From: Sulfurivermis fontis
Lineage (GTDB): Bacteria > Pseudomonadota > Gammaproteobacteria > Thiohalomonadales > Thiohalomonadaceae
Length of the DNA stretch: 64,000 nucleotides
Assembly (NCBI RefSeq): GCF_004001245.1
Contig: NZ_AP018724.1
Span: 2,286,501-2,350,500 of the forward strand
Direction: 5' to 3'
Shown piece after piece: positions 4,216 through 22,650 of this stretch (its first letter is position 1; the number at the start of each line of letters is the position of its first letter). The notes below the pieces were generated by a model that saw only the letters and a program-made list of their open reading frames with translations, did no database searches and was not told the origin of the DNA. Position numbers and translations under genes: made by a program.

Positions 4216-4235
4216 CATTGTCGCCTTGCGCTGGT

Positions 4236-5162
4236 TCAGAACTCCAGGTTGGGGCGCAAGATGATGGTGAAATTGTCGTTACGGCCCTCGGCCAGCGTGC
4301 CGGTGTATTTCTTGTCCGTATACCAGATAAAACCCAAGTCCAGGACAAACGCGGCGCTGTAACGCTGCAGCGGCCATTTCTTGCCCACGGTCAGCTCCTG
4401 CTCCACCAGGGAAAAGCTCTGCCGATCGACGCTGATGCGGTAGGCGATGTTGCTGTTTTCCAGCAGCGGCAACAGGCGGGTGGGCGTATTGTAGTCGAGA
4501 TGGTTGCGCCGCAGACCGAGATATATCGTATCGGTGATGTCGGGGTTGTCGTGCCACTTGGCTCCGACGCGGTAGCTCATGGCGAGACGATGATTGCGGT
4601 AGTGGCGATCGCTCTTCAGCTTGTATTCCAGTTCCAACCAGTTGTCGTTGATGAGTTCGTTGGCCTTGATGTGATAGTTGCCGGTACTGACCAAGTAGCC
4701 CACATGACCCTTGTTGATTTCGCCGTGGATGGCCTCCGGCGCGGCATAGTCCACCACGTTGCCGAAGAAGGCGGAAAACGCGTAGGGCTCCTCGAAGCCG
4801 GCAGTAACCGACTCGACGAGATTGAAGCCGCCGCTGAAATCGGCATCCTCATACAGGCCAGGGTGATTTTTCTTGAGATATACACCGGCCAGCGGCATCG
4901 GGTAGACGCTGGCCTCCAGCAGCATGAAGCGTGGCAGGAAGGCATCCAGCAGCAGGGTGCGGTAGATCTCCGCTTCGCTCACCGCGCCCAGGCGCTGAAT
5001 CGGCTTTTCGGTCAGCGGCACATAGACGCCGAGACTGCTGTAATACGGCGCCAGCTCATGCACCACCTCGACACCGTTGTCGCCCGCATTCTCCGCGAAC
5101 GCAGGCGCACAGGCCACCAGACCACCTGCGGCAAGCGCCGCCAGCCACCTGCGCAATCCCAT
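4236..5162 (-). CDS. Exported protein of unknown function, likely outer-membrane associated
   Basis: I do not recognise a characterised family. The 308-residue protein starts with a signal peptide (MGLRRWLAALAAGGLVACAPAFA, cleavage after AFA at about residue 23). The rest is rich in aromatic residues and alternating beta-like stretches such as LELEYKLKSDRHYRNHRLAMSYRV, and the chain ends in Phe (LRPNLEF), the terminal residue typical of outer-membrane beta-barrels. A barrel or periplasmic beta-protein is therefore likely, by inference. Its start lies 5 bases after the stop of the MotB-like gene, so it probably belongs to the same transcript as motA-motB. Confidence 0.6.
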   Translation of the reverse strand: MGLRRWLAALAAGGLVACAPAFAENAGDNGVEVVHELAPYYSSLGVYVPLTEKPIQRLGAVSEAEIYRTLLLDAFLPRFMLLEASVYPMPLAGVYLKKNHPGLYEDADFSGGFNLVESVTAGFEEPYAFSAFFGNVVDYAAPEAIHGEINKGHVGYLVSTGNYHIKANELINDNWLELEYKLKSDRHYRNHRLAMSYRVGAKWHDNPDITDTIYLGLRRNHLDYNTPTRLLPLLENSNIAYRISVDRQSFSLVEQELTVGKKWPLQRYSAAFVLDLGFIWYTDKKYTGTLAEGRNDNFTIILRPNLEF

Positions 5163-5167
5163 CGCCG

Positions 5168-5971
5168 TTACCGCCCCTCGGGATCGGTTGTGGCACGCAG
5201 CGAGAGCACCAGGGAGACACGACGATTCACCGCCCGGCCGGCAGCGGTGGCGTTGTCCGCCAGCGGGCGGGTATCGGCATAGCCGATGGCGCGCAGGCGT
5301 TGTGCCGCCACCCCCTGGCCGATCAAGTGGCGCACCACGTTGCTGGCGCGCGCCGCCGACAGTTCCCAGTTGGAGGGAAAGATTTCGGTGGCAATGGGCA
5401 CGTTGTCGGTGTGGCCCTCCACCGCAATGGCATGACCATCCTGACGCAGCAACGGCACCAGAGAGTCCAGCAAGGCGCGTCCCTCGGGGCGCAGTTCGGC
5501 CCTTCCGGTGGCAAACAGGATACTTTCCTTCAGCCGCAGCTCGATGCTGCCGGTATGGGTCAGAACCTCTACATTGTCGCTCAACCCCTGTTGCCGGATG
5601 GTCTGGCCGATCTGTTCCGCCAGCGCCTGCTCCTCGCTCACCGGCGCCGCCTCCGGCCGCACCACGCGCCCCATCTCCTGCGACACCGCCTCGGACAGTT
5701 CGCGGTAGGCCTCGCTGTCGGTCTTGGCGTAGGCCAGCATCAGCACGAACAGGGTCAGGATCAGGGTCAGCATATCGATATAGGTGAAGACCCAGGCGTT
5801 GTCGTCTTCATAGGTGGAATCGTGCCGCACCTCATGGGTCTGCGCCCAGGGCAACGGCGTGCGCCGCGCCTCCTCCAGCTCGGCACGCAGGCGGTCGGCA
5901 TCGAGACGGTACTCATCCTCCGGCGTCGGCGCGCCGTTGCCATTGGAATTGTTGTTGTCGGCCGGAGTCAT
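5168..5971 (-). CDS. motB: MotB/OmpA-type stator protein
   Basis: MotB-family proteins form the ion-conducting, wall-anchored part of MotA4B2 complexes. This 267-residue protein has a cytoplasmic head of about 58 residues, one membrane helix with the essential Asp (Asp66 in YIDMLTLILTLFVLML), and a C-terminal OmpA-like peptidoglycan-binding domain with GHTDNVPIATEIFPSNWELSAAR. The head, at nearly 60 residues, is longer than the roughly 25 of E. coli MotB. It follows motA by 12 bases. No flagellar gene is in the window, so it could serve the flagellum, gliding or another motor-type machine. Confidence 0.85.
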   Translation of the reverse strand: MTPADNNNSNGNGAPTPEDEYRLDADRLRAELEEARRTPLPWAQTHEVRHDSTYEDDNAWVFTYIDMLTLILTLFVLMLAYAKTDSEAYRELSEAVSQEMGRVVRPEAAPVSEEQALAEQIGQTIRQQGLSDNVEVLTHTGSIELRLKESILFATGRAELRPEGRALLDSLVPLLRQDGHAIAVEGHTDNVPIATEIFPSNWELSAARASNVVRHLIGQGVAAQRLRAIGYADTRPLADNATAAGRAVNRRVSLVLSLRATTDPEGR

Positions 5972-8052: not shown

Positions 8053-8111
8053 ACCAAGCCACCTGCCCGTAGCAACCGCAGGGTGCTGGCGGGGTGCACC
8101 AGTGGCCCGCT

Positions 8112-8141
8112 TTGAAATTGTGCGACGTCTTTCCGCATAAT
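8112..8141 (+). promoter_or_regulatory. Candidate sigma70 promoter of the nucleotidyl cyclase gene
   Basis: TTGAAA at 8112-8117 and CATAAT at 8136-8141 are separated by 18 nt. The predicted start point near 8148 gives a 5' leader of about 20 nt before the ATG at 8169. The site lies in the spacer between the divergent MFS and cyclase genes. Confidence 0.5.
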
Positions 8142-8168
8142 GCCGCCATTGCAGCCAAGAGCCCAATC

Positions 8169-9401
8169 ATGCCTAGCATACTGGATCGACGCATCAAGGG
8201 TACGCCCGGCGGAGCCGTACTGCACGAGCTGTACAGCAACAGCGCCCATTTCCCGCTGGCCAACATCTTCCTCGAACTGCTGTTGCGCGGGCCGGGGGAA
8301 TACCTGTTCGCGCTGGATCTGTATTTCCTGGTGGCCGCCGCCCTGATCCAGGCCATGCTGGTCGGTCGCTGGGAAATGGGGGGCACCACACGCCCCCTGC
8401 TGGGCAATCTCATCGGACCGGCGGTTTACAGCTGTGCCGAATTCATCGCCGAGGGGCCGGAGTTCCTGCTGCACGCCAACCACCTCGCCTACTGGGGATT
8501 TGCGCTCAGTATCGGCCTGCTGCAATGGCTGCAGGCGCGCAGCATCCGGCTGCGCCCGCCGCTGCTCCTGCTGGAGCACGTCATCCGTACCTGCATCGTC
8601 CTGGTGATGTACGTGATCCTCGAGTTCTCCATCGATGACTACAGCGGACTGGCGGCATTCCTCAACGATGCGCCCCATGCCTTCGTCGCCATGGTATTGC
8701 CGCTGCTCGGTCTGATCGTCGGCCTGGCCCATCTCAACTCCGCCCGCTATCTGCAGACCCTGCGCCAGACCACGGAGCAATTGCGGCAATATTCGGAATG
8801 GCTGTTCGGCAAGGAGCTGCTGCAGATGGCCGTCAGCGACCCGCAGGCCTTGTCGCTGGCGCGACACGAACGTGCCATGGTGTTCATGGATATCCGCGGC
8901 TTCACCGCCTGGAGCGAGATGCGCGCGCCGGAAGAGGTGGTGGAACTGATCAACGCCTACTACGCCGCGTGTGAACCGGTATGGCGCGACTTCCAGGCCA
9001 TCAAGGTGAAACTGACGGCCGACGAGGTCATGCTGGTATTCGGCAGCGCGCAACAGGCCGTGGACGCCGCCCTTGCCCTGCGCAGCGCCACCCTGCCGCT
9101 GCTTGGCCGCGCCGGGCTCACCGCCGGCTGCGGCGTGCATTATGGCCCGGTGGTCGAGGGCCTGATGGGAACGGAAGAACGCCGCAGCTACGACCTGCTG
9201 GGCGACAGCGTCAACACCGCCAAGCGGCTGTGTGATGCCGCCGGCGGTAGCGAGATACTGATTTCACAGGCGGTGTACCAGCAGATCGGTGGCCGGCCTT
9301 CCGGATTGCAACAGCGCAGCCTGCAGGTCAAAGGCAAACAGCAGCCGCTCACGGCCTACACGCTCCCCTTCTCCCCGAGAGAGCAGCAACCCTTCGCTTG
9401 A
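8169..9401 (+). CDS. Membrane-bound class III adenylate/guanylate cyclase
   Basis: The 410-residue protein has an N-terminal half with several hydrophobic helices (for example LFALDLYFLVAAALIQAMLV and FVAMVLPLLGLIVGLAHL) and a C-terminal class III cyclase domain from about residue 235. The metal-binding Asp residues are Asp241 (VFMDIRGFTAW) and Asp285 (KLTADEVMLVF). The DLLGDSVNTAKRLCDAA segment supplies the purine-site Asp and the transition-state Asn/Arg. All catalytic positions appear present, so it should make cAMP or cGMP, probably in response to a membrane signal. The start is the ATG at 8169 just before conserved hydrophobic sequence. An upstream in-frame ATG at 8094 lies before the likely promoter. 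Confidence 0.85.
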   Translation: MPSILDRRIKGTPGGAVLHELYSNSAHFPLANIFLELLLRGPGEYLFALDLYFLVAAALIQAMLVGRWEMGGTTRPLLGNLIGPAVYSCAEFIAEGPEFLLHANHLAYWGFALSIGLLQWLQARSIRLRPPLLLLEHVIRTCIVLVMYVILEFSIDDYSGLAAFLNDAPHAFVAMVLPLLGLIVGLAHLNSARYLQTLRQTTEQLRQYSEWLFGKELLQMAVSDPQALSLARHERAMVFMDIRGFTAWSEMRAPEEVVELINAYYAACEPVWRDFQAIKVKLTADEVMLVFGSAQQAVDAALALRSATLPLLGRAGLTAGCGVHYGPVVEGLMGTEERRSYDLLGDSVNTAKRLCDAAGGSEILISQAVYQQIGGRPSGLQQRSLQVKGKQQPLTAYTLPFSPREQQPFA

Positions 9402-9753: not shown

Positions 9754-10203
9754 CTACATTTGTGCCAACTCGTCCAGCACCCGCTCGAGCAGCGCCGCCA
9801 GTGCTCCCTCCGCCGACTCGCTATCCCCCATCTCGATCCCGATCACAACGATCTTGCCCGGCAGTCCGCCCAAAGCCCGCCCCAGTGCCAGTGCATCGAC
9901 AACACCGAAGCCGTGCGTCGACACCAGACCCGACCCGGCATTCAACTCATCAAGGGAAAAACGCCGCACGCTGCCGGCGGGCAGGCCCGAGTGCATGGCG
10001 TCGATGATGATGGCGGCATCGGCCTGGCCCAGCAGCGTGAGCAGGCGGCTGCCAGGGCGATCGGTTTGTTCAAACTTGATATCGAGACGGGGAAACTGCG
10101 CACTCAGCGACTGCCGTTCCAAGGCGGCGACGGCCTGCCAGCCGAGGCGGTCGGCGCCGAAGGGAGAGCCGACGCCGAGGATGAGGATGTTCCTGTGCTG
10201 CAT
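9754..10203 (-). CDS. Hydrogenase maturation protease (HyaD/HycI/HoxW family)
   Basis: This endopeptidase clips the C-terminal tail of a NiFe-hydrogenase large subunit once nickel is inserted. The 149-residue protein begins with the family motif ILILGVGSPFGADRLGW, carries the nickel-sensing acidic residue in the GADRLG and IIIDAMHSG segments, and has the STHGFGVVDAL histidine region. It ends the minus-strand hydrogenase operon, 93 bases after the large-subunit gene. Its substrate is presumably the product of 10297-11595, whose C-terminus extends nine residues beyond the expected cleavage site. Confidence 0.92.
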   Translation of the reverse strand: MQHRNILILGVGSPFGADRLGWQAVAALERQSLSAQFPRLDIKFEQTDRPGSRLLTLLGQADAAIIIDAMHSGLPAGSVRRFSLDELNAGSGLVSTHGFGVVDALALGRALGGLPGKIVVIGIEMGDSESAEGALAALLERVLDELAQM

Positions 10204-10296
10204 CCGTTGCCTGATTCAACAGCAGGAGCCGACCCCTCGTGGCGAACAGGCGGCTGCGATACGCGCCCATTCGCCCACGGAGCGGGCTCCCAGTGC

Positions 10297-11595
10297 TCAG
10301 TCCCGTTTGATGTTCACCTTGAGGAAGTGCGTGGCGCAGGAGATGCACGGGTCGTAGTTGCGGATCACCGTCTCGCCGCGCAGGCGGATTTCGTCGTCCG
10401 GCTTGTCCAGCCCCATGGCTTCCAGCGAGCGGCGCAGGTCTTCCTCGATACGCGCCTGATTCTGGCTGGTGGGCGGCACGATGGTCGCCTGCACCACGCG
10501 GCCCTGCCCGTCCAGCTCGTAGCGGTGCCAGAGGATGCCGCGCGGCGCCTCGGTGCAGCCGTAGCCGACGCCGGCGCGCGGCGTGACCTCGACATAGGGC
10601 GAGTCGGGTACGCTGTAATTTTCCAGGATGCGGATCGCCTCCAGCAGTGCGAAGTGCAGTTCCACGGCACGGGCCAGGGCGCTGTGGAACATGTTGTTGC
10701 TGGGGAAGCGCACCTTGGTCTGTTCCAGATTGACGCGCACCGCCTCGGGCAACTGGGCGTAGTTCAGATTGACACGGGCCAGCGGGCCGACCAGGTAGGG
10801 CTTGCCGTGCAGGTGGCAGTGCAACGCATTGGCGTGCGGGATGTGGATCTCCTGGAAGTGCTGGTGGAACTCGCTGATATCGATGTCGAGGCCGTCGTCG
10901 GAAACGATACGGCCTTCGTTGAAGGCGTATTCCTCCGGATGACGCAGGGCGACGGAGGTGAAGCTCTGCGGGTCATCGGGCAGATCGAGGGCGGCCACCC
11001 AGCGCACCAACGCCTCCACTTCAGGGAGAGCGGCACGGCACTCTTCCAGCTTGGCGGCCATCGCGGCGGCACGCGGCGCGTGGAAGAAACCGCCGGCACG
11101 GACGCCGACCGGATGCACGGAACGGGCGCCGAGCAGGCGCACCAGGCTGTTGCCCAGTTCCTGCAGGCGCAGGCCGCGCTTCACCTCTTCCGGATGATCC
11201 GCCGCCATGGCGATGGCGGATTCATAGCCGAGGAAATCGGGCAGGGCCAGCAGATGGATGTGCAGGGCATGGCTTTCGATCCATTCGCCGCAGTAGAACA
11301 GACGGCGCATCTCGCGCACCCACGGCGTGGTTTTGGCACCGAAAATCATTTCAATGGCATGCGCCGCGCTCATCTGATAGGCCACCGGGCAGATACCGCA
11401 GATGCGCGCCACGATGTCCGGCACCTCGGTGTAGCTGCGCCCTTCGAGGAATTTTTCGAACAGGCGCGGCGGCTCGAAGATGCGCAGCTTGAGGTCGGTG
11501 ATGCGGCCGTCGCGCACCTCCAGCTCCATGGCGCCCTCCCCCTCGACGCGGGCCAGGACCGGCACGTTGATGCTGATGTCGCGCCGTTCAGTCAT
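10297..11595 (-). CDS. hydA: NiFe hydrogenase large (alpha) subunit, group 3b type
   Basis: This is the catalytic subunit holding the NiFe centre. The 432-residue chain has the N-terminal nickel ligands in RICGICP (Cys66, Cys69) and the C-terminal pair in DPCISCATH (Cys417, Cys420). The final nine residues after His423 are the tail expected to be removed by the protease at 9754-10203. Size and gene neighbours (FAD/NAD subunit, 4Fe-4S beta subunit) fit cytoplasmic NADP-linked bidirectional hydrogenase/sulfhydrogenase. The ATG at 11593-11595 follows AGGAG by 7 nt and overlaps the delta gene by 8 bases. The frame is open further upstream but with non-conserved sequence. Confidence 0.92.
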   Translation of the reverse strand: MTERRDISINVPVLARVEGEGAMELEVRDGRITDLKLRIFEPPRLFEKFLEGRSYTEVPDIVARICGICPVAYQMSAAHAIEMIFGAKTTPWVREMRRLFYCGEWIESHALHIHLLALPDFLGYESAIAMAADHPEEVKRGLRLQELGNSLVRLLGARSVHPVGVRAGGFFHAPRAAAMAAKLEECRAALPEVEALVRWVAALDLPDDPQSFTSVALRHPEEYAFNEGRIVSDDGLDIDISEFHQHFQEIHIPHANALHCHLHGKPYLVGPLARVNLNYAQLPEAVRVNLEQTKVRFPSNNMFHSALARAVELHFALLEAIRILENYSVPDSPYVEVTPRAGVGYGCTEAPRGILWHRYELDGQGRVVQATIVPPTSQNQARIEEDLRRSLEAMGLDKPDDEIRLRGETVIRNYDPCISCATHFLKVNIKRD

Positions 11596-12367
11596 GACTC
11601 TTCTCCTGCCAGCGCACGCCTTCGGCATGGAAGGCCGGCGCACCGTTGTTGATGAACAGGAAGCGATGGGCGATGGCCTCGGGCAGCAGGCCGAAGCCCT
11701 CGAAGCGTCGCGCCAGCGCCGCCGTTTCCGGGTTCTCCGCCGGGCCGAAACAGGCATAGCAGTCGCGGCCGAAGCTGGGACACAGCGCGCCGCAGCCGGT
11801 GCGCGTCACCGGCCCCATGCACGGCACACCTCTGGTGACCATGACGCAGACGGTGCCCTTGCGCTTGCATTCCAGACAGACCTTTTCCATCTCCTCGCGC
11901 GGCGCGACCCCGAACAGCAGGTCGCGCACCGCCAGCACCACCTGGCGGCTGTTCACCGGACAGCCCCACAACTCCAGATCGACACGCACGTGCTGGGACA
12001 CCGCAGTGGACGTGGGCAGGAACGGGATATGCTCGGGACCGGCATATACCCCGGCCAGCCAGGCATTGCCGTCGGCCATGTTGCGCAAGGCCTGCAGGCC
12101 GCCGGCGGTGGCGCAGGCACCCAGCGTCACCAGATAGTTGCTGTTTTCGCGCACGCGCTTGATGCGCTCCAGCTCGTGCGGCGTGGAGATGCTGCCTTCG
12201 ACGAAGGCCAGGTCGACTTTGGCGTCCTCGTCCAGATAGCCGGCTTCGGCGAAGTGGACGATGTCCACCAACTCGTTCAGTTGCAGCAGTCCCTCGCCGA
12301 GATTCAAAAAGGCGAGCTGGCAACCGTCGCAGGAGGAGAACTTGTGTACGGCGACTCTTGGTTTCAT
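11588..12367 (-). CDS. hydD: NiFe hydrogenase small (delta) subunit, group 3b type
   Basis: This electron-transfer subunit carries the proximal iron-sulfur cluster next to the NiFe site. The 259-residue protein starts MKPRVAVHKFSSCDGCQLAFL with the two N-terminal cluster Cys residues. It then shows the small-subunit motifs VEGSISTPHEL, LGACATAGG, ELWGCPVNSRQV and a Cys-rich C-terminus (GVPCMGPVTRTGCGALCPS and DCYACFG) with ligands for further clusters. There is no twin-arginine signal, so it works in the cytoplasm. The start follows AAAGGGGTT and lies 2 bases beyond the stop of the gamma gene. Confidence 0.9.
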   Translation of the reverse strand: MKPRVAVHKFSSCDGCQLAFLNLGEGLLQLNELVDIVHFAEAGYLDEDAKVDLAFVEGSISTPHELERIKRVRENSNYLVTLGACATAGGLQALRNMADGNAWLAGVYAGPEHIPFLPTSTAVSQHVRVDLELWGCPVNSRQVVLAVRDLLFGVAPREEMEKVCLECKRKGTVCVMVTRGVPCMGPVTRTGCGALCPSFGRDCYACFGPAENPETAALARRFEGFGLLPEAIAHRFLFINNGAPAFHAEGVRWQEKSHD

Positions 12368-12369
12368 GA

Positions 12370-13221
12370 TCAGAACCCCTTTACGCCGAGCAGTTCCTTC
12401 ACTTCCGGATAGCAGAATACCGGGCCGTCCTTGCACACGAAGTTGCCGCCGTGCTGGCAGTGGCCGCAGCGACCGGCGCCGCACTGCATGTTGCGCTCCA
12501 TGGATAGCCAGAGCGATTCCTCGGCAATACCGCGCTTGAGCATGTCGGCGATCACCGCGCGCATCATGCCTTCCGGGCCGCACATCATGACGATGCTCTT
12601 GTGTGGGTCGATGTGCGCCTCGTCAAACAGGATGGGAATGTGGCCAACGCGGAACGGCCACCCCTGGCCAGCCTGATCGGCGGTGAGCAGCACCTGGGTA
12701 TCGGGCAGACGGGCCCACTCCTCGTAGCGTTTCTTCCAGATTAGATCGGCGGCGTGCTTGACGCCCTGCATGATCACCAGCCGGCCATAGCGGGCACGGC
12801 GGCGCAGCACGTAGTTGATTACCGACACCACCGGGGCGCAGCCGAGGCCGCCGGTGGCGATGATCACATCGCGCCCCTCCGCCTCCTTCACCGGCCAGCC
12901 GCGACCGAAGGCACCGCGTACCCCGAGACGATCGCCCACCTGGAGAGCGGCGAGGCCGCGGGTGACGCGGCCGACGATACGGATGGTGTGGTCGTACATA
13001 TGCTCGTCTTCCGGATCGGAGACGATGGAGATCGGCACCTCGCCGACACCGTGCAGGTACAGCATGTTGAACTGGCCGGGCATGAAGCCATAGGCCTTGT
13101 GCACATCCGGATCGGTAAAGCGCAGCCGCAGGGTGAAGATGGTCGGCGACTCCTGTATGCGCTCGACGATCTCCGCTTCATGCGGCAACATGCTCAACGA
13201 CGTGGGCTGCGGTGCGGTCAT
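12370..13221 (-). CDS. hydG: Hydrogenase FAD/NAD(P)-binding (gamma) subunit
   Basis: This diaphorase subunit passes electrons between the hydrogenase module and NAD(P). The 283-residue protein has a ferredoxin-reductase-type FAD barrel (GFMPGQFNMLYLHGVGEVPISIVS), a nucleotide fold (ATGGLGCAPVVSVINYVL, then MMCGPEGMMRAVI) and a C-terminal 2Fe-2S site with four Cys in MQCGAGRCGHCQHGGNFVC. The layout matches the gamma subunit of archaeal and bacterial sulfhydrogenases and is related to PyrK. Its start is 14 bases after the chemoreceptor gene, with AAGGAA upstream, so the two are co-transcribed. Confidence 0.9.
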   Translation of the reverse strand: MTAPQPTSLSMLPHEAEIVERIQESPTIFTLRLRFTDPDVHKAYGFMPGQFNMLYLHGVGEVPISIVSDPEDEHMYDHTIRIVGRVTRGLAALQVGDRLGVRGAFGRGWPVKEAEGRDVIIATGGLGCAPVVSVINYVLRRRARYGRLVIMQGVKHAADLIWKKRYEEWARLPDTQVLLTADQAGQGWPFRVGHIPILFDEAHIDPHKSIVMMCGPEGMMRAVIADMLKRGIAEESLWLSMERNMQCGAGRCGHCQHGGNFVCKDGPVFCYPEVKELLGVKGF

Positions 13222-13235
13222 GGCGATTCCTTGCG

Positions 13236-15194
13236 TCAGGTGGAAGACTCTGCGCTTTTCTGTTCGATGACGTCCAGCATCTGCACGACCTTGCGTGACA
13301 GCGGCTCGATCTTGAGGTACTCCTGCTCCGCTTCCGCCATCTTGCCTGCTTCGCGCAGGTCGATAATGGTACGTATCAGTTTGTGCAGTTCCTCATGGGG
13401 CGGCTCAAGCTGGCGCATCTCCGCCATGTTGCCGTACTTCTGCATTCCCTCACCGTAATACCACTTGCCCAGCACGCAGTCCTTGTGCGAGACGGCCTGA
13501 TCGCGCGTCAGACTGCCCTTGCCGTCGAGATAGGCGCGCAGCTTGCCCTTCCAGGCCAGGTGCGCGGTCTTGGCGGCGGACAGATCGGCACCGTGCACAT
13601 TGGTGCGGAAGCGGGCCACCAGAGCGCGCAGATTGTCCATGTGCTCGTGGATCTCTTCGGTCGAGGCCACGGTGTCCGCCGCGGTGCGCGAGGTCTGCTC
13701 GGCGACACTGGCGATATTGGTAATGGAACGATCCATTTCCTCGGCCACGTGGCTCTGTTCCTCGGCCGCAGTGGCGATCTGATTGCTCATGTCGGTAATG
13801 GTGGCCACCGACTGTACGATGCGATCCAGCACGGCACCGGCCTCGGAAGTGGCGGACACCGTCGCCTGCGCCTGGGTACGGCTCTGCTCCATCATCTCCG
13901 CCGCCTTGCGCGACTGGGTTTGCAGACGCTCGATGATGGCGCGGATTTCCTCGGTGGACTTCTGGGTGCGTTGCGCCAAGGTACGCACCTCATCAGCCAC
14001 CACGGCAAAACCGCGGCCCTGTTCGCCGGCGCGCGCCGCTTCGATGGCCGCATTGAGTGCCAGCAGATTGGTCTGCTCGGCGATACCGTTGATCACTTCC
14101 AGCACCCGCCCTACCTCGCGGCTGTCTTCCTGCAACTGCGCCATCACGCCGGCGCCCTGCTCCACCTGCTGGGCCAGACTGTCGATGCTGTCGATGGTCT
14201 GCGTCACCACACGACGGCCGTTCTCCGCCTCCTCCTTGGCCTGAGCGGCAGCCTCGGCGGTATGCGAGGTATTGCGCGCCACCTCCTGCACGGTGGCGGC
14301 CATTTCATTCATGGCGGTGGCAATCTGATCGATCTCGGAGTGCTGCCGCTGTACACCGCGCATGGTCTCTTCCAGACGGGTCGCCACACTATCCATGGTG
14401 CTGCTCACCTGTGCCGTGCCATGAGTTACACCACCCACGATCTGCCCCATATGCGACACCATGTCATTGTAGGCGGCGAACATCTGGCCGATTTCGTTTT
14501 CCGTGTTATCCACGGTCAGTGTATGGGAAAAGTCACCGCCCCCCACCGCCTTGAGATGCTCGCGCAGACGGTCGATCTGTTGCATCAACACCGTCATGCC
14601 GAACATGCGGCCAAAGGTTACCAGCAACAGGATGACGAAGGTCGAGCCGAGTGCCACATACAACTGCTGCCGGGCTTCCGCCTTTGCCAGGGCCTCCATC
14701 ATCAGAACCGCGGCATTCATTTCCTTCAGCACCAAGGGCGAACGCTGCTGGATGGCGCGCATCTGCTCGGGATTGCGGCTATCGACGTAACTGAGGATAT
14801 CGCCCTTGTAGTCCTGCCACAGCTGCTCCACCTTCTGCAGCTGTTCCCGCACCCCCTTGTTGCTTACCGCAGTGATGCCGCGTTCGGCATTGCCCTCGAG
14901 CAGGGCGCGATGCGCATCCTCGAACTGCTTGATGGTGGCCAGCACCGTATCCTTGCTCTCCATACCCTGTCCCGCGAGCAAGGCCTCCTTGGCGAGTTTC
15001 TGGCTCAGCATGCGCTGGGCGCCGGCGACATTGATGCCGGCGGCATCGTTACCGAAGTTGAAATAGAGATCCGCCGCCACCACCGCCGCAAACACGAAAA
15101 TCAGCGTGTAGGAAAACAGAAACTGCTTGTCCAGGCTGCGGATGCCCAAGGCTCTCAGCATCTGCTGGATGATGTTGGCAATCAGCTGTCTCAT
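13236..15194 (-). CDS. Methyl-accepting chemotaxis protein, PilJ-type sensor and C-terminal CZB domain, inside the hydrogenase operon
   Basis: This 652-residue chemoreceptor has TM1 at about 24-45 and a short periplasmic domain of the PilJ/NarX kind ([19 protein letters not shown]). TM2 lies at about 181-203, followed by HAMP and a long coiled-coil signalling domain. The kinase-control tip is [24 protein letters not shown]-terminal zinc-binding CZB domain (from about 540) has the ligands in [19 protein letters not shown] and PHEELH. CZB domains are known to bind zinc and sense oxidants such as hypochlorite. An AAGGAGT site precedes the ATG. It lies 44 bases after the hydrogenase beta gene and 14 before the gamma gene, with no break in strand, which suggests it signals the state of hydrogen or redox metabolism (inference). 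Confidence 0.93.
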
Positions 15195-15238
15195 GCTAAT
15201 GACTCCTTATTGTGTTTGTATGTGTCAGACCTGATGCA

Positions 15239-16315
15239 TCAGGCCTTGCACAGGGCAGTGGCTTCGGCGGTGATGTCGATGGCCGCCGGACACCAGCTGA
15301 TGCAGCGGCCGCAGCCGACACAGCCGGAGCGGCCGTACTGGTCATGCCAGCTGCCGAGCTTATGGGTCAGCCATTGACGATAACGGAATTTGGTTTCCGC
15401 CCGGATCACCACGCCGTGGATGTAGCTGTGGCCTTCGGTAAAACACGAGTCCCACTGCCGGTAGTGCACGCTGCTGCGACCATCCAGCGCCGGTTCATCG
15501 CGTTCGCTGTGGCAGAAACAGGTAGGGCACACTGCAGTGCAGTTACCGCAGGACAGACAGCGCGCCGCCACGTCATCCCAGCGCGCATGCTCCAGGCGGG
15601 CGAACAGCATGTCACGCAGGTTGCGCCCTGGCAGGGTGCGGGTCTGCTGCGCGGCGGCAGCCGCATTCTGCTGCTGGGCCAACGCACGTTGCACGTCACT
15701 GGCCGGCTCCAGATACAGCTCGCGCAGAATATTGCCGCCGGCTGGCGTACCACTGCGGATGACGTAGCCCTCATCCAGCTCATCCAGCACCAGGTCGAAA
15801 CCGGCCCGCGCCTCGGGGCCATCGCCGGTGGAGGCGCAGAAACAGGTTTCAGCCGGATGGGTACAGTTCACCGCCACCAGGAACAGGCGTTCACGGCGCG
15901 CGGCGTAGTAGGGATCGTCGTGGAGGAAATGCAGATCGTGAATGTGTAGCGCAGCCAGGTCGCAGGCGCGCACCCCGATCACGGCGGTGGGCGCATTGTG
16001 CAACGGTACCGGCGCAAAACCGGCCCCCTGCGTGGCCTGCCAGAGACTTTCGCGCGGCGCGAAGGTCAGCGGCTTCAGCGCCTGCGGGCCGGTGGCCCAG
16101 GCAAAGCTGCGTTCACCGCCGGCGGCCTCCAGTCGATAGCTGCCCGGAGCCTGATGGTCACGCATACCCTGCGGCAGGCGGGCGATGTCATCCAGCGCTT
16201 CATACACGATGGCACCATCGCGTACCTGTGGACCGATACAGTGAAACCCGACGGCACGCAACTTATCTAGCAGGCGCTGCAACTCCTGGCGGGGAAGAAA
16301 CAGGTATTCGGCCAT
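15239..16315 (-). CDS. hydB: Hydrogenase 4Fe-4S (beta) subunit, sulfhydrogenase type
   Basis: The beta subunit wires the diaphorase to further iron-sulfur clusters and, in sulfhydrogenases, is linked to reduction of polysulfide. The 358-residue protein has a first domain of the HycB/asrA-like kind (VIGVRACDLAALHIHDLHF, CTHPAETCFCASTGDGPEA). Two 4Fe-4S motifs follow: CLSCGNCTAVCPTCFC and CVGCGRCISWCPAAID near the C-terminus. I chose the ATG at 16313-16315; ATGs at 16324 and 16333 are in frame and possible. It is the first gene of the operon, followed by the chemoreceptor. Confidence 0.88.
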   Translation of the reverse strand: MAEYLFLPRQELQRLLDKLRAVGFHCIGPQVRDGAIVYEALDDIARLPQGMRDHQAPGSYRLEAAGGERSFAWATGPQALKPLTFAPRESLWQATQGAGFAPVPLHNAPTAVIGVRACDLAALHIHDLHFLHDDPYYAARRERLFLVAVNCTHPAETCFCASTGDGPEARAGFDLVLDELDEGYVIRSGTPAGGNILRELYLEPASDVQRALAQQQNAAAAAQQTRTLPGRNLRDMLFARLEHARWDDVAARCLSCGNCTAVCPTCFCHSERDEPALDGRSSVHYRQWDSCFTEGHSYIHGVVIRAETKFRYRQWLTHKLGSWHDQYGRSGCVGCGRCISWCPAAIDITAEATALCKA

Positions 16316-16373
16316 CGACTCCATCCCTTGCATTATTATCGAGAATGTTGCCGGTGTGTGTCTTTGGGCAAGC

Positions 16374-16397
16374 ATCCGGGTTAAGCTTAACCCGGAT
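16374..16397. promoter_or_regulatory. 24-bp perfect palindrome between hydrogenase and V-ATPase operons
   Basis: Two 12-base halves meet at 16385/16386: ATCCGGGTTAAG and its exact complement CTTAACCCGGAT. The site lies 59 bases upstream of the hydrogenase beta ATG and about 90 bases upstream of the first V-ATPase ATG, in a 172-bp divergent spacer. It could be an operator for a dimeric regulator controlling both operons. The lack of a T-run and the divergent setting argue against a terminator. Confidence 0.6.

Positions 16398-20901: not shown

Positions 20902-20905
<4 letters not shown>
20249..20905 (+). CDS. ntpE: V-type ATPase subunit E-like peripheral stalk protein
   Basis: This 218-residue protein has a long N-terminal helix rich in Glu, Ala and Arg (about 1-90) and a compact C-terminal domain, as expected of subunit E, which with the small coiled-coil subunit forms the peripheral stalk. 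The C-terminal segment ELRANEQIDAGLRICAAGACLDGTLEGLL resembles the E-subunit ending that binds the catalytic head. It overlaps both neighbours by 4 bases. Sequence conservation in this family is low, so position in the operon carries much of the call. Confidence 0.75.

Positions 20906-22650
<1,745 letters not shown>

Follow-up and report, generated by a model that had tools for sequence, protein, structure and literature searches.

Why does a gene for a complete chemoreceptor lie between two subunit genes of a hydrogenase, and what does that receptor sense? It is difficult to foresee what a chemoreceptor binds, and we know of few receptors that are tied by an operon to one redox enzyme. The locus belongs to Sulfurivermis fontis JG42, whose genome is one contig of 3,246,214 bases, and was studied in a window of 64,000 nucleotides (positions 2,286,501 to 2,350,500 of NZ_AP018724.1). 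On the minus strand the genes follow one another in the order hydB, receptor, hydG, hydD, hydA and maturation protease (Table 1). The original prediction that a complete chemoreceptor gene separates hydB from hydG, starting 44 bp after the one and ending 14 bp before the other, and has a ribosome-binding site of its own, was confirmed. Past the protease end of the operon, a plus-strand gene (8094-9401) encodes an adenylate/guanylate cyclase catalytic domain.

Table 1. Features of the JG42 locus, in positions of the window.
Feature	Position	Strand	Basis
Receptor gene, 652 aa, ATG start	13236..15194	-	ORF, Pfam
hydB, beta subunit (Fer4_22)	15239..16315	-	Pfam, NCBIfam
hydG, gamma subunit, NAD- and Fe-S-binding	12370..13221	-	Pfam, NCBIfam
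hydD, delta (small) subunit	11588..12364	-	Pfam, NCBIfam
hydA, alpha (large) subunit, CGIC and CISC motifs	10297..11598	-	Pfam, NCBIfam, motif check
Hydrogenase maturation protease, HycI type	9754..10203	-	Pfam, NCBIfam
hydB-receptor gap, 44 bp, with AAGGAG ribosome-binding site ahead of ATG	15195..15238	-	
Receptor-hydG gap, 14 bp	13222..13235	-	
N-box of the receptor, residues 54-65, including Arg61	15000..15035	-	PMC6381276 consensus, 6gcv alignment
CZB domain, residues 545-611, with H545, C573, H600, H604	13362..13562	-	Pfam, alignment, motif positions
Sigma-70-like match, 9 of 12 (weak)	16335..16364	-	Single hit of the scan upstream of hydB
Perfect dyad, 24 bp, ATCCGGGTTAAGCTTAACCCGGAT, upstream of hydB, just before the promoter-like match	16374..16397	.	

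The hydrogenase subunits match the NCBIfam models for HydB, HydG, HydD and HydA and the Shy models strongly, yet below the equivalog cut-offs. These cut-offs presumably mark particular sulfhydrogenases and not group 3b as a whole. Genes for the beta, gamma, delta and alpha subunits form one cluster, as in group 3b, here interrupted by the receptor. The large subunit is a member of PF00374 (NiFeSe_Hases) with both CxxC motifs, and not an [FeFe] catalytic protein. We classify the JG42 enzyme, from these features, as a probable group-3b-type NiFe hydrogenase, predicted to be cytoplasmic and NAD(P)-linked.

A sequence scan, of a kind that is weak for promoters, detected neither promoter-like nor terminator-like sites between hydB and hydG. 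The whole scan held two sigma-70-like matches, against a mean of 1.5 in shuffled sequence; outside the hydB-hydG interval it gave nine terminator-like sites, where shuffled sequence gave 4.2.

Distribution of the receptor-hydrogenase arrangement

Searching the order yielded 20 genomes, 12 of them with hydB and five of these in the genus. The receptor stands between hydB and hydG, with short gaps to both genes, in all five genus genomes: JG42 and the relatives L013, L014, L015 and L016, which are by matching coordinates the same contigs as G014, G017, G016 and G015. The other family members with hydB (n = 7) have hydB and hydG adjacent, with 27-57 bp between the aligned ends. Outside the genus we collected 104 hydB loci (92 from 369 genomes of the class, eight from 398 genomes of the phylum and four from the family), 101 of which hold both genes. 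No chemoreceptor lies between hydB and hydG in any of these 101 pairs, and no receptor match was found anywhere on the stretches taken, some of which stop early at a contig border and four of which span ~1.5 kb per side, so that receptors farther away would be missed. A second sample, from a scan of GTDB contigs, overlaps partly with the organisms of the first; hydB and hydG are both present in 34 of its 35 outside loci, again without an intervening receptor. The idea that chemoreceptors are widespread in hydB-hydG junctions was rejected, since neither outside sample held one. Recurrence of the arrangement was thus borne out within the genus, where five of five genomes show that it is not confined to one strain, and did not extend beyond it in the samples taken. 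Because all five genus genomes carry the receptor and the outside junctions do not, the gene was most simply gained once, into the hydB-hydG junction of the genus ancestor.

The JG42 receptor was compared in three parts with those of L013, L014 and L016, L015 being left out for a gap that breaks its frame. Values of dN ranged from 0.05 to 0.44 and those of dS from 0.39 to 1.40, and dS exceeded dN by a factor of ~3 to 15 in all nine comparisons (three receptor parts by three relatives). Judged from these rates, the receptor, sensor domain included, is under purifying selection. Conservation in five of five genus genomes, together with dN below dS, argues that the arrangement is more than chance.

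The frame-breaking gap of L015 is ~95 bp long (by eye) and falls at ~8244-8250, in the signalling hairpin, the most conserved region; it is perhaps an assembly fault in this draft genome. Between the hydG and hydD matches, the gap is widened to ~600 bp in L015 and ~190 bp in L016. The hyd operon may be split in these two genomes, so that a single transcript of the whole cluster is not to be assumed for all species. Short open reading frames that, judged by eye, resemble the four-helix bundles of 23S rRNA intervening sequences are inserted in the hyd clusters of L015 (~9900-10380, between hydG and hydD, flanked by short tandem repeats) and of L017 (7095-7508, between hydB and hydG).

The original prediction held that the subunit genes of such enzymes are usually contiguous, and this stood in outline: the hydB-hydG gap is shorter than 150 bp in 85 of the 101 outside pairs and larger in 16. 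In 15 of the 101 pairs it measures ~480-630 bp (L163-L172, L174, L175, L177, L185 and L186). We translated six of these 15 gaps, and all six hold a frame of ~150-190 aa that resembles cNMP-binding proteins, Pfam confirming one. These frames are perhaps of the HoxI type; HoxI has been described in a group 3b cluster (PMC12319191). The HoxI-like clusters therefore carry an extra gene in the same junction as JG42, though theirs encodes a short cNMP-binding-like protein and that of JG42 a chemoreceptor, among whose Pfam matches the cNMP-binding domain PF00027 is absent.

The neighbourhood of hydrogenase and receptor genes is, as such, already known. HydDB labels [FeFe] group C2 'Chemotactic (putative)' and describes it as presumably working through methyl-accepting chemotaxis proteins (PMC5037454); the JG42 enzyme differs from this putative sensory enzyme in being of the NiFe type, and its receptor in being of the nitrate type. 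Table 1 of PMC12727194 lists genes for methyl-accepting chemotaxis proteins near NiFe large-subunit genes (cluster 29, 87 genes), which are likewise neighbours; it names 4HB, TarH and Cache as their sensor types and gives neither hydrogenase group nor position. Within the open-licence literature searched, we found no description of a nitrate-type receptor between two NiFe hydrogenase subunits. A possible second, independent receptor-hydrogenase pairing occurs in L039, one of the outside loci of the GTDB-contig scan, where a 4HB-type chemoreceptor gene (4219-5844) on the same strand ends ~156 bp upstream of hydB.

Sensor and CZB domains of the receptor

Pfam assigns four domains to the JG42 receptor, all above curated cut-offs: PilJ at residues 49-135 (PF13675, 68.8 bits against a cut-off of 26.6), HAMP at 203-247, MCPsignal at 314-497 and CZB at 545-611 (56.2 bits against 29.4). 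Two transmembrane helices would account for the hydrophobic stretches near residues 23-49 and 176-205. These matches uphold the architecture first read from the DNA, a PilJ-type sensor combined with a C-terminal CZB domain. Each of the five genus genomes gave two matches to CheA-type domains.

Among solved structures, the best sequence match of the sensor domain is the nitrate-binding domain of McpN (PDB 6gcv; E = 1.3e-17). A structure search with a predicted model also ranked McpN first, followed by the nitrate/nitrite sensor NarQ; the AlphaFold model of the receptor is of modest confidence (mean pLDDT 59), and we take the search only as support for the sequence result. McpN (PA2788 of Pseudomonas aeruginosa) and the JG42 receptor have in common a PilJ-type periplasmic domain, an exact N-box and Arg61, and differ in that the JG42 receptor carries a C-terminal CZB domain and sits inside a hydrogenase operon. 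To our knowledge, McpN has no CZB.

The study of McpN gives the N-box as [IVL]-[ND]-x-A-G-x-Q-R-M-L-[ST]-Q and reports that R61 makes hydrogen bonds to nitrate, that the R61A change abolishes binding, and that PilJ itself binds no nitrate, so that PilJ domains are not all nitrate binders (PMC6381276). Residues 54-65 of the JG42 receptor match this consensus exactly, and the numbering of its R61 coincides with that of the nitrate-contact Arg61 of McpN. The N-box is present in four of the five genus receptors, the exception being L016, and in all five outside homologues (L101-L105) that gave the strongest sensor-domain matches in the 369 genomes of the class. One of these, L105, adjoins a transporter that resembles the NarK family (165 bits, below the model cut-off of 311.7) and also NirB (952 bits, above cut-off). 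The JG42 receptor looks, from its sequence, like McpN and carries the defining motif, which makes it a candidate member of the nitrate-binding group.

The genomes were also surveyed for nitrate reductases. NapA exceeded its cut-off in four of the five genus genomes, JG42 among them, and NarG in two, JG42 not being one of these. JG42 grows anaerobically (PMC6397845, Table 1), and we infer that this growth uses nitrate. Outside the genus, hydB occurs in four of the five genomes with strong N-box-type matches and in 89 of 368 overall (P~0.013), or in nine of 21 when weaker sensor-domain matches are included (P~0.04), an association that was chosen for testing after the data were seen, that a shared lifestyle may explain and on which we do not lean.

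L016 (genome G015) provides a natural variant. Its N-box reads IDIGGRQSMLIQ, with Ser in place of Arg61, and both NarG and NapA stay below cut-off in this more diverged, 84% complete draft. Because the outside homologues have an N-box, its absence here appears, most simply, to be a loss. The pairing of an intact N-box with NapA, and of a lost N-box with no NapA found, agrees with nitrate sensing. Despite the loss of the N-box, the L016 receptor still stands between hydB and hydG and retains its CZB domain, and the operon link in this genome is left unexplained by nitrate sensing.

The 3His/1Cys residues of the CZB domain are present in the JG42 receptor by alignment and motif positions, and are kept in all five genus receptors, including that of L016; this statement draws on an alignment of JG42, L013, L014 and L016, on Pfam matches in L013, L014 and L016, and, for L015, on residues legible in the DNA past the frame break. 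No CZB was seen in an alignment of the five closest homologues in the outside sample (L101-L105), of which L104 holds an unresolved stretch and two were run through Pfam. Within this sample, the CZB fusion and the operon position go together, and the CZB may be the part that ties the receptor to the hydrogenase, a possibility raised by the fact that the operon link outlives the nitrate site. Two further sites in JG42 match the CZB at E<=1e-12, as do sites in 38 of the 369 class genomes. In G086, a PilJ-like receptor and a CZB share a single frame that is without an N-box and whose PilJ-like part rests on a 28% alignment; as far as this alignment goes, PilJ-like receptors with CZB extend beyond the genus. 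A census of CZB proteins (PMC8262984) describes membrane chemoreceptors that, like the JG42 receptor, have a C-terminal 3His/1Cys CZB after the signalling domain; the sensor variants it names include 4HB, globin and PAS/Cache, and 'PilJ' was not found in its main text. Two PilJ-like stretches, in frames of ~290-330 aa, lie side by side in five genomes (L058/L077, L060/L075, L061/L076, L065/L078 and L074/L080).

Candidate functions of the receptor

The reading that best accommodates these observations, to which we give a probability of about 0.6, is that the gene encodes an McpN-type nitrate chemoreceptor with a zinc/redox CZB module, expressed together with the hydrogenase. The receptor would be translated from the hydrogenase mRNA, so that its dosage would rise when the hydrogenase is made. 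Nitrate in the periplasm would bind the N-box of the receptor dimer, and the HAMP domain and signalling hairpin would relay this signal to control of the CheA kinase. The cell would thereby be steered towards nitrate, an acceptor that it could reduce with NapA, and the cytoplasmic CZB would add a zinc/redox bias. Nothing was found that links the JG42 hydrogenase to nitrate.

The locus was first interpreted in terms of taxis towards hydrogen, by direct sensing of H2 or by sensing of hydrogenase turnover. The position of the receptor inside the operon speaks for this, as does the putatively chemotactic [FeFe] group C2 of HydDB (PMC5037454). The periplasmic domain is, however, of the nitrate type, with a complete N-box and its closest matches in McpN and NarQ, and the enzyme is a NiFe hydrogenase with a NAD-binding subunit, not an [FeFe] enzyme of the sensory type. 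We know of no Pfam domain in this receptor that senses H2. Hydrogen taxis is not supported by these results and in our estimate very improbable; hydrogen as the direct ligand is unlikely, and the match of the sensor domain to nitrate receptors led us to reject it as the favoured reading. A purely accidental origin, by which the gene landed in the operon by chance and borrowed its promoter with no functional link to the enzyme, would fit the restriction to a single genus in the sample and the other inserts in hyd operons (L015 and L017). A neutral insert that splits an enzyme operon should, on the other hand, decay or be expelled, whereas this one has kept its position in five diverged genomes and shows purifying selection against three intact relatives; we regard such hitch-hiking as decidedly unlikely.

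Redox sensing through the CZB, which the original prediction also raised, deserves more weight, and gains some support from the retention of the CZB where the nitrate site was lost. The zinc site would read the redox state, or an available zinc pool that shifts with oxygen and hydrogenase activity, and the PilJ domain would be secondary. The 3His/1Cys site is conserved in all five genus receptors, none of the five closest outside homologues examined has a CZB, and a 2026 preprint (PMC13370339) reports a CZB receptor that senses redox via zinc, the readout proposed there being the available zinc pool. Against this, the N-box is intact in four of the five receptors, the sensor domain is under purifying selection, and the CZB is not tied to hydrogenases, as its further matches in JG42 and in the class genomes show. 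We consider redox taxis through the CZB doubtful as the main function, though a serious possibility. The nitrate reading and the CZB might also be joined in a dual-input receptor, with nitrate read outside via the N-box and hydrogenase-driven redox read inside via the CZB zinc site, a proposal that we advance tentatively and judge rather unlikely. If it were true, nitrate would be sought only when hydrogenase-driven reductant is available, and L016 would have let the nitrate half decay and kept the redox half in a lineage where no nitrate reductase was found.

If nitrate is the ligand, as we prefer, the receptor may lead these sulfur-oxidising bacteria not to hydrogen but to an electron acceptor. 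The locus also warns against inferring ligands from neighbouring genes, as the operon points to hydrogen and the sensor domain to nitrate. Domain, operon and natural loss variant together make it a testable case for the coupling of acceptor sensing with hydrogenase expression.

A dyad upstream of the operon

The perfect dyad upstream of hydB (Table 1) has a 20-bp core that occurs at one place per genome in three of the five genus genomes, JG42 included; the exact core is absent from the other two, L015 having one difference and L016 being without it. A dispersed repeat was rejected as an explanation, given the one place per genome. The dyad extends around a GGGTTAAGCTTAACCC core and its symmetry reaches 54 bp in L013 (by eye). 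Comparison of L013 with L014 shows at least one outer pair in which both sides have changed and the symmetry is preserved. The element is a candidate operator or RNA hairpin between the hyd and ATPase genes, and as an operator it may be common to the hyd genes and the divergent V-type ATPase genes. The V/A-type ATPase genes lie on the plus strand, divergent from the hyd operon, with subunit A at 20902-22650. An AtpA match close to hydB was also seen in three of the 35 outside GTDB-contig loci (L017, L029 and L034).
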